From Bacillota bacterium (GTDB taxonomy: Bacteria; Bacillota; SHA-98; UBA4971): a stretch of DNA of 64,000 nucleotides. The DNA lies in assembly GCA_012842395.1 (NCBI GenBank), contig DUSX01000031.1, positions 1 to 64,000 of the forward strand, read 5' to 3'. The notes below the pieces were generated by a model. That model was given only the letters and a program-made list of their open reading frames with translations. It was not told the origin of the DNA and made no database searches. The translations under genes and the position numbers were made by a program. Below, piece after piece: positions 27,824-61,308 of this stretch (positions are counted from its first letter, which is position 1; every line of letters starts with the position of its first letter).

Positions 27824-28737
27824 TATCCTGGGTGCTCGCTTCCGCCATTCAGGCGTCTGTGCCGTTGATACTCGCCGCAGAAGCGGGCCTCGTATCAGAA
27901 CGCTCCGGCGTGGTCAACCTCGCTTTGGAAGGAATGATGCTGTCCGGTGCGTTCGCGAGCATGATCGGCGCCAGCGTTTGCGGCAATGTCTGGTTGGGCC
28001 TGCTGTGGGGGGTGGCGGTGGGCGCGGTGCTCGGGCTCGTGCATGCGTATGCAAGCGTGACATGGGCGGCGGACCAAATCATCAGCGCGACTGGGATCAA
28101 CGTCGTGGCGGCTGGGGGCACGAGCTTTCTCTTGAAAGTGATCTTCCGGCATGCCGGCACATCGCCAGCCGTGCCAACCATTCCGAAGCTCTTCCCCGCC
28201 GGGATAGCTCAACTTCCAGGTGTCGGCCCGATCCTCATGAACATGACCGTGATAGACGTCTTTGCGCTAGCCCTTCCTTTTGCGCTGCTTTATTTCTACC
28301 AGCAGACCCCCATGGGGCTTCGCGTGCGGAGCGTCGGCGAGCGGCCCGATGCTGCGGAGAGCGTGGGGATTCCGGTGCATCGGGTGCGGTACGTGAGCGT
28401 TGTGGCCAGCGGCGCTCTGGCCGGTCTCGCTGGTGCCTATCTCGTGCTGGACGTATTGGGGTTCTTTCAGCAAGACATGAGCGCTGGCCGGGGATACCTC
28501 GGCCTTGTGGCGATGATATTCGGGAAGTGGAACCCGGTGGGTACCTTCCTGGCAGCGCTCTTCTTCGGGCTTGCGGACGCCGTTCAGATCGCGCTGCAGC
28601 TCAATCTCGCTGCTGCGATCCCGAAGGAGGCCTTCCTCGCGTTGCCGTACGTGCTTGCTCTCCTGGCGCTGGCAGGATTCGTTGGGAGGGCTGAGGCCCC
28701 GGAGGCCGACGGCAAGCCGTTTGTCTCGCAGAAATGA
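27820..28737 (+). CDS. Nucleoside ABC transporter permease (NupC/YufQ-like)
   Basis: 305 residues, second BPD_transp_2 permease. SERSGVVNLALEGMML is the matching N-terminal hallmark and GRGYLGLVAMIFGKWNP the C-terminal coupling loop. It pairs with the preceding permease to form the pore of the importer. Last gene of the nucleoside operon that begins at 21202. Confidence 0.92.
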   Translation: MISWVLASAIQASVPLILAAEAGLVSERSGVVNLALEGMMLSGAFASMIGASVCGNVWLGLLWGVAVGAVLGLVHAYASVTWAADQIISATGINVVAAGGTSFLLKVIFRHAGTSPAVPTIPKLFPAGIAQLPGVGPILMNMTVIDVFALALPFALLYFYQQTPMGLRVRSVGERPDAAESVGIPVHRVRYVSVVASGALAGLAGAYLVLDVLGFFQQDMSAGRGYLGLVAMIFGKWNPVGTFLAALFFGLADAVQIALQLNLAAAIPKEAFLALPYVLALLALAGFVGRAEAPEADGKPFVSQK

Positions 28738-29185
28738 CCTGCGGTGCGGGCAGGGCAACCTGGCCTCCGACCGCACGACCGCACGGCGGGGACAAAAACC
28801 GTCTCTCCTTGATCCTCTTCGGAAGGATTGCATCGACTCGTGGCGAAGATTACCGCTAACGTGGGTCGATTCATGTTAGCCGGCGCCGTCAGGACCCGTC
28901 GTGCTTCAGCGCTCTTCGACACCAAAAGCGCATGAACCCGGATCGTACGCTGCGATGCTCTACTGCCGTATCACCTCGCGCAAACCGGTGCAGTGGGTGT
29001 CCCGGGAAAGGGGGTAGTGCCTAAAAGGCTGTCAGGCGTTGACGCGGCATGTGTTCCACTCAAATCAAAGGCCGAAACATGGCTAGGCGCGGCAAGGAAC
29101 CTGGAGCCGCACGAGAAACAGGCACAGAGTCACGGACAGGCCAAGAGGACGAGCAGAGAACGCGACCAAGGGAAGACGCACGGTA
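28738..29185. other. Intergenic, no gene seen
   Basis: 448 bases with only unsupported short ORFs. A weak GTGCGG/CCGCAC inverted repeat follows the permease stop, without a T-run. Confidence 0.4.
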
Positions 29186-30076
29186 ATGACTGATACATTG
29201 ATGAAGGATGCAAGAAATACGGCGCTCGCCCAACTCACCGCAGAGATCGAGGAACTTCGCAAGGAACTCAATCGTGCCGTCCAGAGGAACCACCTGAATT
29301 TCCAGGCTGCGGCGGTTCAGGCCTTGAGCACAAGGCTCGACGTCCTCATCGCGGAATTCGTAGGGCGCCGCAAGAGCCCAGCCGGCGAGCGCTCGGGGCC
29401 GTTTCCGCCACAACTCTCCGCGGGGCTTTCCATTCAAGCCTACGGAAGTCCTGTTGTGGAAGCTTATCGAGGCTCCGCCAGATCCTTGCGGTATCGCCTG
29501 CAGGATGAGTTCAGGAGGTCCGGAGCCAATGCCATGAGGCTCCTTCCGTGGGGCATGCATCTTTGTCAGTTCTACTCTGGCAGTCAGGATCTCGTAGACG
29601 TTCTCGTCCCTTACTTCAGGGCAGGGCTGGAGCATAACGAGTTCTGCCTGTGGGTCACCTGTGAACCGTTTGGTCGGGTTATGGCAAGGGAGGCGCTGGC
29701 CCAGGCGGTTCCTGGGCTGGAAGGTTACCTCAAGAAGGGACAAATCGAGATTCTCTCCTCTTCAGAATGGTACATGAGAGGCGGCGCGTTCAACGCGGAC
29801 AGCGTCATAGAAGCGTGGGCAGGCAAGCTTAACCAGGCCCTGTCCAGGGGGTTCGATGGCATGAGGTTCTCTGGGGACACGGGTTGGCTCGAGCCCAAGG
29901 ACTGGGCGAGATTTGTGAGTTACGAGAACCGCGTGGACAACGTTTTACGCAGGTCCCGGATGAAGGCCATTTGCGCCTATCGTGCGGACAAATGCGGGCC
30001 GCGCGAGACCGCGGATGTGCTCCGTGAACATCGACTTGCGTTCATCAAGGACGTAGACGGATGGCGGCTTGTGTAG
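29186..30076 (+). CDS. Spo0E-like domain fused to MEDS sensor domain
   Basis: 296 residues in two parts. Residues about 12-60 (ALAQLTAEIEELRKELNRAV, then ALSTRLDVLIAEF) match the two-helix Spo0E aspartyl-phosphatase pattern, whose signature is SQxLDxLI; here it reads STRLDVLI. Residues about 105-290 (GMHLCQFYSGSQDLVDVLVP, CLWVTCEPFG, MRFSGDTGWLE) match the MEDS domain of DcmR-type sensors. Spo0E proteins dephosphorylate Spo0A, and MEDS is thought to bind small hydrophobic ligands. The fusion could make response-regulator phosphatase activity ligand-dependent. No DNA-binding or kinase domain is present. Confidence 0.75.
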   Translation: MTDTLMKDARNTALAQLTAEIEELRKELNRAVQRNHLNFQAAAVQALSTRLDVLIAEFVGRRKSPAGERSGPFPPQLSAGLSIQAYGSPVVEAYRGSARSLRYRLQDEFRRSGANAMRLLPWGMHLCQFYSGSQDLVDVLVPYFRAGLEHNEFCLWVTCEPFGRVMAREALAQAVPGLEGYLKKGQIEILSSSEWYMRGGAFNADSVIEAWAGKLNQALSRGFDGMRFSGDTGWLEPKDWARFVSYENRVDNVLRRSRMKAICAYRADKCGPRETADVLREHRLAFIKDVDGWRLV

Positions 30077-30203
30077 ACTTCGGGTTGGCGAAGTGCGAGT
30101 AGAACATGGGAGGCATGGAAGGGACCGCGCCGAATAGCGAGAAGACAGCACACGCGATCCCTCCGGGAATCGCGCGCGAGCATCACCTGAGGAGGGCTTG
30201 AGG

Positions 30204-31709
30204 ATGAGTGCGGACGGCGGTTCCAAAAACACGGGTGGCATCCGGAAAGACGATCGTCCGAATGATTGCGCGGCGAATGATGGCGTATCGAGTGGCGGCG
30301 CACTGAATGATAAGGATGGCGCAGCTGCTGGTCGAAACGATTCAGTGCGCATGGAGATTCTTCTGAGCCACGCCCTGTTGCCTGTTGGGGAGCCTGGTGT
30401 CTTTTGGGCGCTCGTGACGTTGACTGGCCTCAGCCCGAACGCCAAGGAGGCAGTTCACGGAGGCGGGGGCCGTGCGCGTCTGCCGCTCAACATCGGCCTG
30501 GTTTTGGACCGTAGCGGCTCCATGAGCGGGGAGCCCCTCGAATACGTGAAAGAGGCCGCCTGCTTTGTGGTCGACCAGCTAAGCGCGAGGGACAAGTTCT
30601 CCCTGGTGACCTTCGATAGCGATGTCGAGCTCCTCTGTCCTTCCCAGGAGGTTCAATTCAAGGACCAGCTCAAGGCCGCGATAAGGAACATCCAAAGCGG
30701 TTCGTCCACAAATCTCTCCGGAGGGCTCCTTCGCGGATATGAGGAAGTGCTGAAAGAAAACCGCGCCGGCCAGGTAAACCGCGTAGTGCTCCTGACCGAC
30801 GGCATGGCAAACGTCGGCGTCACCGACCCCACCCTCCTCGGCGCCAAAGTCCGCGCCATCGAGAAAAAAGGCATATCAGTCTCGGCGGTAGGGGTTGGTA
30901 GCGCATTCGATGAAGACCTCCTGATCGCGCTCGCCGAAGCTGGGCACGGCAATTTCTACTATGTCAAGAACATTGACGAGATCCCTAGCGTGTTCCGGCA
31001 AGAGCTCACGGGCCTGCTCTCAGTCGTGGCTCAAGCGGTGAAGGTAAAGGCAACGGTTGGATTCGGGTGCAAGCTCGCTGGCGTGCTCGGGTATGAGCCC
31101 GAGCCGGCCCCCGACGGCGCGGTCCTGCACCTGCCCGATATGTACGAGGACGAGGTCAAGCGCCTCGTGCTCGAGGTCTGGCATCCTCCGCTGCCGGAGG
31201 GCGAGCACGAGGTCTTGGAGGTGTCCCTGAAATATGTAGATGCTGGGCAGGCGCTGGCCGAAGTGAGCGTCTCGGTCAAGGCCCGGCTAAGTGCCGGCTA
31301 TGGTCCGCCTGAGGCGTACAAGCCCAGGTATGAAGTGGTGAAGCGGGTGGAACTCGTGAAAACCGCTCTGGCCAAAGACAAAGCTGTTGAGAAGTCCAGG
31401 GAAGGCGAGTTGAACGAAAGCAAGGCGATTCTGCAACATAGGCTGCAAGCTCTGGAGAACCTAACCCGCGACGGGCACGGCGCCGGCGATGCCGAGGTCA
31501 AAGAGGAGATCGAAAACCTCAGGAACTTGGTTCGACAAGTGGATGAGATTGAGGAGGAAAGGAAACGCCTCAAGACGCGCGGGACCCATGCCTCTCTATC
31601 GGACAATGCTGCGCCCACGCCGTCCCAAGCCACCTTTTTGAAGGAGCTACGGAGCCAGAGCTATATGACGCGCCGGGATAGGCGAGAGCCTAACACGCGT
31701 GGGGAATAG
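30204..31709 (+). CDS. VWA-domain protein
   Basis: 501 residues from ATG 30204, chosen because GGAGG is 9 bases upstream. A low-complexity Gly/Asn/Asp tail (1-50) is followed by a von Willebrand A domain starting near residue 95, with the metal site DRSGS (102-106) and VVLLTDGMANVG. A beta-rich region and a charged coiled coil (about 385-470, rich in Glu, Lys, Leu) follow. No signal peptide or membrane helix is seen, so it is probably cytoplasmic and a scaffold for protein contact. It follows the Spo0E-MEDS gene by 127 bases; a functional link is only suggested. Confidence 0.85.
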   Translation: MSADGGSKNTGGIRKDDRPNDCAANDGVSSGGALNDKDGAAAGRNDSVRMEILLSHALLPVGEPGVFWALVTLTGLSPNAKEAVHGGGGRARLPLNIGLVLDRSGSMSGEPLEYVKEAACFVVDQLSARDKFSLVTFDSDVELLCPSQEVQFKDQLKAAIRNIQSGSSTNLSGGLLRGYEEVLKENRAGQVNRVVLLTDGMANVGVTDPTLLGAKVRAIEKKGISVSAVGVGSAFDEDLLIALAEAGHGNFYYVKNIDEIPSVFRQELTGLLSVVAQAVKVKATVGFGCKLAGVLGYEPEPAPDGAVLHLPDMYEDEVKRLVLEVWHPPLPEGEHEVLEVSLKYVDAGQALAEVSVSVKARLSAGYGPPEAYKPRYEVVKRVELVKTALAKDKAVEKSREGELNESKAILQHRLQALENLTRDGHGAGDAEVKEEIENLRNLVRQVDEIEEERKRLKTRGTHASLSDNAAPTPSQATFLKELRSQSYMTRRDRREPNTRGE

Positions 31710-61232: not shown

Positions 61233-61308
61233 TGGTGAGCCATCCGGGACTCGAACCCGGGACACCCGGATTAAAAGTCCGGTGCTCTACCACCTGAGCT
61301 AATGGCCC
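61233..61308 (-). tRNA. tRNA-Lys (UUU)
   Basis: 76 bases with encoded CCA. The acceptor stem pairs GGGCCAT with ATGGCTC (one G-U), D-loop TAGCTCAGGTGGTAGAGC, anticodon arm CCGGACTTTTAATCCGG with anticodon TTT, and T-arm GGGTTCGAGTCCC. All arms fold normally. Confidence 0.97.

Follow-up and report, generated by a model that had tools for sequence, protein, structure and literature searches.

The window analysed here, a stretch of DNA 64,000 nucleotides in length, carries on its forward strand a gene (29186–30076, stop included) for a protein of 296 amino acids in which a Spo0E-like domain and a MEDS sensory domain share one polypeptide. The Spo0E-like domain (residues 17–58; 29234–29359) matches PF09388 (SpoOE-like, profile positions 1–40 of 42) with 32.2 bits against a Pfam-A cut-off of 23 (E 1e-7), and with 35.7 bits in a genome-wide scan that returned the gene as a single open frame of 329 codons free of stops. 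The MEDS domain (residues 125–282; 29558–30031) matches PF14417 with 157.9 bits against a cut-off of 29.8 (E 2.4e-46). With both curated cut-offs exceeded, the fusion proposed in an earlier, sequence-only reading is genuine, its limits of 12–60 and 105–290 for the two domains being slightly wide. Two further Pfam families overlie the N-terminal hairpin below threshold; Pfam matches under the curated cut-off were left unused throughout, except those flagged as borderline. Between the domains lies a linker (residues 61–117; 29366–29536) that is less conserved than either and for which a helix at 89–111 is predicted with low confidence. Translation may start at M1 (29186) or at M6 (29201): in the sister gene of a second species of the genus (G005), an ATG just ahead of the hairpin opens the sequence MKDA, which by eye resembles M6 of the window protein and which the aligner places at residue 9 of that protein. 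The fusion gene is followed on the same strand by a vWA-domain gene (30198–31709).

Control of the fusion gene through Spo0A boxes was considered and rejected as evidence on site statistics and on the sister's upstream region: upstream of the start lie one TGTCGAA, at 271 bases, and one looser TGGCGAA, at 345 bases, the ten TGTCGAA sites in the window compare with 6.95 expected (15 of 100 shuffles reach ten), and TGNCGAA is absent from the 564 bases before the sister gene. A search of 28700–30250 gave no sigma-70-like promoter and just two terminator-like sites (1.5 expected), both of them on the other strand. With Rfam gathering scores as the limit, the window yields a tRNA gene (61236–61308, reverse strand) and nothing else.

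The SxxxD signature of the N-terminal domain, a motif defined in the excerpted text of PMC11115286 as one that Spo0E proteins carry, is S48-T-R-L-D52 (29327–29341), with D52 aligned to the Spo0E aspartate; the STRLDVLI signature noted in the sequence-only reading thus keeps its Ser and Asp and has Thr at the usual Gln position of SQxLD. Across 16 Spo0E modules that we chose and aligned, R25, L28, S48, L51 and D52 are invariant. A local Spo0E profile built from 25 seed sequences scored 27.3 bits on residues 1–62 of the window protein. Applied to 73 MEDS open reading frame (ORF) entries, duplicates included, it gave 11 scores above 8 bits, all of them copies of four true fusions, and matched one other MEDS ORF (L122) with a stray 5.9 bits inside the MEDS domain. 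The 16-module profile, which includes the window module, matches the structures 2bzb (E 5.8e-11) and 2c0s (E 6.8e-5), which we take to be Spo0E-like proteins of bacilli and whose database records bear only the title "conserved domain protein"; a search of the PDB with the window protein as single query returned no chain up to E 1. For this domain AlphaFold, given the N-terminal 67 residues alone as a single sequence, predicts helices at 2–34 and 41–63 with a mean pLDDT of 74, and the whole-protein model, with two relatives in the alignment, places them at 2–34 and 40–60 with low confidence. A fold search with the hairpin model alone gave three matches at E 3.4 and worse, with no Spo0E structure among them.

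The MEDS part is modelled as an alpha/beta domain, its best stretches reaching a pLDDT of about 80 in a whole-protein model with an overall mean of 56.5. Foldseek and VIA-align place it with KaiC and other RecA-like ATPases, chains of which fill the match lists; the best match has Z 9.7 and an rmsd of 4.1 over 146 residues at 8% identity, and TM-scores range from 0.29 to 0.44. The Walker A pattern [GA]xxxxGK[ST] is absent from the window protein, and a KaiC-like fold without an intact P-loop, as modelled, agrees with the part of PMC5847659 consulted, where MEDS is listed under "iKaiC", meaning a KaiC-like ATPase domain that has been inactivated. MEDS is described in excerpts of PMC11507031 and PMC11784639 as a small-molecule sensor domain of regulators, and in the relatives found here it stands ahead of signalling outputs: PAS and histidine kinase (L004, L077), HisKA (L011), or PAS and HD (L005). 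Identity to a MEDS-PAS-histidine kinase from an Acidobacteria metagenome-assembled genome (MAG) is 51%, and to a MEDS-PAS-HD protein from a Chloroflexi MAG it is 37%; a Chloroflexi MEDS-PAS-HD protein (L005 826–2478) is also the sister of the window MEDS domain in our tree. Against the anti-sigma family NF041045 (RsbA) the window protein scores 33.9 bits, through its MEDS part alone, and so falls below the family cut-off of 210. Nine MEDS proteins of about 250 residues that resembled the fusion in length were set aside, having an N-terminal helix-turn-helix (HTH) domain instead (PF12728 in the four that were scanned; by eye in the other five).

The sequence-only reading would have been refuted by the lack of a Spo0E profile hit, or by the absence of spo0A and any sporulation phosphorelay, and it passes this test. 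In the host genome, which is 98% complete (3.14 Mb in 61 contigs), Spo0A_C is matched twice. Both matches belong to full response regulators that combine a receiver domain with Spo0A_C, the first on contig C34 (L064 5265–6044) beside the gene for the SpoIVB peptidase (spoIVB) and the second on contig C18 (L065 7615–8403). The suggested link to the Spo0A pathway is supported accordingly. Of the family's 13 genomes, 12 have the same pair of matches and the remaining one has a single match. In a wider base of 25 Spo0E-fusion genomes, which excludes the window genome and its congeners with the YflT fusion only and from which G557 and G415 were left out, Spo0A is present in 23 of 23, a count that covers fusion-carrying genomes only. 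The only other Spo0E match in the host genome (C34:251655) lies in a protein that also carries a YflT stress domain, 13.6 kb from the first spo0A.

The combination of Spo0E with MEDS is not confined to this genus. In a sample of the phylum, MEDS occurs in 66 of 398 genomes at 74 listed places, 59 of which were fetched (the other 15 being two contig-edge fragments and 13 matches below cut-off); one of the 59, in G375, is unmatched by the local MEDS profile. At four of the 59 (G000, which is the window genome, G005, G058 and G362) Spo0E and MEDS lie in one ORF, as Pfam confirms for all four. The fusions of G058 and G362 constitute a second form, which we call type 2, of about 245 amino acids with SQxLD and with Cys pairs on either side of the hairpin. 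The same CxxC flanks are seen in the type-2 proteins at L114, L116 and L159–L168; by eye such pairs resemble a metal pin, and they could possibly serve as one or as a redox switch. In the order to which G362 belongs, type-2 ORFs, called where both local profiles match one ORF (Spo0E above 8 bits, MEDS above 15 bits), number at least 17 in at least 15 of 225 genomes, a lower bound drawn from the 30 best loci plus 14 other places; MEDS exceeds 70 bits in 10 of these 15 genomes, and second copies in G418 and G429 fall below the local thresholds. The order of G058 consists of one genome, the sole one covered by its search. Phages gave no match for either type. On plasmids, the window protein is matched in 25 records, never across more than 80% of its length, and there is one full-length type-2 relative, from Peptoclostridium acidaminophilum (L211 4001–4726; WP_025436856.1, annotated only as a MEDS domain-containing protein). 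It keeps the Cys pairs and the hairpin length, has Glu for the signature Asp and reaches no Spo0E score; it is possibly a pseudo-phosphatase, and the substitution is evidence against a phosphatase role common to all such fusions.

A tree of 55 MEDS domains, in which the label "HK" was assigned by exclusion, separates types 1 and 2 by a branch with support of 98/99, and a single grouping of the four fusions is rejected (p-AU 2e-7). The two domains have therefore come together on at least two occasions, and such repetition points to a working link between them, not to an accident.

Nor is MEDS the only partner, and the statement in the sequence-only reading that Spo0E proteins normally stand alone needs to be corrected: besides the fusions to MEDS, of two origins, we find fusions to YflT, GGDEF and HD. 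A Spo0E-YflT protein is present in all six species of the genus (in the window genome at L001 859–1668, reverse strand, near C34:251655), that of G005 being borderline: against the cut-off of 23, its Spo0E part scores 20.5 bits when the protein is scanned and 24.2 when the genome is. The sister genus has a free-standing Spo0E of 72–89 amino acids in six of seven genomes, which suggests that the YflT fusion was gained in this genus; a YVKL tail is by eye common to both. In G318 the Spo0E domain precedes an HD domain (PF13487; L068 2630–3388). Eight places with a long Spo0E frame were fetched from the order of G362, and six of them, in G449, G505, G434, G598, G557 and G415, encode GGDEF-Spo0E proteins in which each domain exceeds its cut-off (by eye the GGDEF motif looks intact in G449, G557 and G415 but altered in G505, G434 and G598); in the other two (G597, G439) Spo0E follows a stretch without a Pfam match. 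The GGDEF-Spo0E loci are L189, L196, L197, L198, L199 and L201. Long Spo0E frames in G023 and G107 were rejected as fusions, the stretch ahead of the hairpin looking by eye like a read-through of high G+C.

We propose, with a probability of roughly 0.55, that the window protein is a soluble one-component regulator of entry into sporulation, in which MEDS gates a phosphatase or blocker of Spo0A~P. Going by what is known of the Spo0E family, the hairpin would dock on the Spo0A receiver domain with D52 extending into the active site, and the outcome would be either hydrolysis of Spo0A~P or a block on the phosphorylation of Spo0A. Such docking is seen in a model of the Clostridioides difficile proteins in which, according to the accessible sections of PMC11115286, the two Spo0E helices lie against the receiver of Spo0A, cover its phosphorylation site and bring the Asp to the interface; a TPR protein, RstA, sits in that model at the loop between the helices. 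The MEDS domain, KaiC-like and with its Walker A lost, may bind some small metabolite, or else a partner protein, and could thereby hide or expose the hairpin or alter the oligomeric state; MEDS would then play in cis the role that a partner protein may play in trans, that of gating the access of the hairpin to Spo0A. A chemical condition would in this way set the level of Spo0A~P directly, with no kinase in between, and the likely effect would be that sporulation is held off while the signal persists, because Spo0E proteins oppose Spo0A.

Part of this evidence would also fit a hairpin that binds a receiver without being a working phosphatase, or whose partner is not Spo0A, with MEDS tuning the binding; such a hairpin would sequester its partner, be that Spo0A, its second paralogue in this genome, a different response regulator or an RRNPP protein. 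The Thr in place of the usual Gln of SQxLD favours such a protein, as do the presence of two Spo0A_C matches in nearly all genomes of the family (12 of 13) and the C. difficile case, where Spo0E is described, in the accessible sections of PMC11115286, as binding RstA as well as Spo0A and as affecting motility and toxin in a way that the authors call Spo0A-independent. Both signature residues, S48 and D52, are nevertheless intact, and the residue that coordinates water in Spo0E has been suggested, from data cited in the consulted part of PMC3035606, to be acidic and not an amide. We hold this alternative as a whole to be unlikely, if still to be reckoned with.

The distribution within the genus raises a further question, namely whether the gene is a decaying accessory in which the hairpin is a mere helical or dimerising extension of a MEDS protein at a locus that is being lost. 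The fusion is intact in two of the six congeners, the window genome and G005 (58% identity). In G003 there is a MEDS remnant without Spo0E (L010 1426–1896, covering query residues 152–286) that adjoins the same convergent MATE gene as the window fusion, so that this species seems to be losing the gene. A MEDS match is absent in G001, G002 and G004, and a search of G002 at E 1e-100 gave no MATE gene. G004 has before its MATE gene a frame of 124 codons that resembles the C-terminal end of the vWA protein (54% identity over 108 residues, E 2e-32), so that the locus seems to decay piecewise. From this distribution among the six congeners it follows that the fusion is not needed for sporulation as such. 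The type-2 relative that lacks the signature Asp points the same way as these losses, but the comparison of the two intact frames argues against a hairpin that has become mere ballast: between the window genome and G005 the Spo0E part (residues 14–60) is as highly conserved, at 64% identity, as MEDS (residues 118–296), at 61%, with the linker at 48%, and the proportion of non-synonymous differences (pN) stays well below that of synonymous ones (pS; pN/pS 0.19/0.61 in Spo0E, 0.33/0.70 in the linker and 0.22/0.65 in MEDS). Judged from these substitutions, both domains are under purifying selection and the linker is less constrained, and we regard simple decay as quite improbable. A false fusion, whether a chance coiled-coil match or two genes joined in assembly, is very improbable indeed, for although short helical domains can give weak chance matches and two sub-threshold Pfam families overlie the hairpin, the best of 5,000 residue shuffles (4,373 scored) reached 11.2 bits against 27.3, the frame is open throughout, and the same join recurs in the genome of another species, G005.

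Viewed as a sensor-gated regulator of Spo0A~P, the window protein can be set beside several known systems. With the Spo0E-family phosphatases (Spo0E, YisI and YnzD of Bacillus subtilis; 2bzb and 2c0s) it shares the hairpin profile, SxxxD and a Spo0A in the same genome, but the described members are short and free-standing, whereas here the hairpin is the N-terminus of a 296-residue protein and has Thr for Gln. From MEDS sensor proteins, the histidine kinases and DcmR-type regulators with PF14417, it differs in that their output is a kinase, HD or HTH and its own is a Spo0E hairpin placed before MEDS. The type-2 proteins have the same domains in the same order, with 22–25% identity to the window protein, and differ in the CxxC...CxxC that flanks the hairpin, in SQxLD (in most of them), in a short linker and in a different MEDS branch. 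A work-alike may be seen in the Rap phosphatases such as RapH with their Phr peptides: according to the consulted part of PMC3035606, these sensor-gated phosphatases drain the phosphorelay that leads to sporulation. Their target, though, is Spo0F, on which they act by means of a TPR protein and a catalytic Gln, and the likeness to the fusion is functional only, with no sequence relation claimed.

Both domains are known, and what is new is their joint architecture and its repeated origin. In the literature searched we found no publication that names Spo0E together with MEDS or with GGDEF; subscription papers and domain databases may list the fusion. A 2024 survey of Spo0E proteins applied, according to its accessible sections (PMC11115286), a length filter of 40–100 amino acids, and the window protein, with 296 residues and a second domain, lies outside this usual free-standing form, length not being a Pfam criterion. 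This suggests that length-filtered surveys of Spo0E miss informative members.

More tentatively, Spo0E may be a transplantable output module that has been fused repeatedly in the Firmicutes, to MEDS at least twice and to YflT, GGDEF and HD, giving rise to one-component, signal-gated Spo0A phosphatases. If this is true, these proteins would represent an undescribed layer of sporulation inputs beside the histidine kinases and the Rap/Phr system, and the GGDEF-Spo0E fusions would tie cyclic-di-GMP to sporulation. As to the signals that reach Spo0A by routes other than the classical phosphorelay, a fusion of sensor and phosphatase offers a concrete, testable candidate, and, as MEDS and Spo0E have been joined at least twice, the ligand of MEDS would reveal what holds back sporulation in these organisms.
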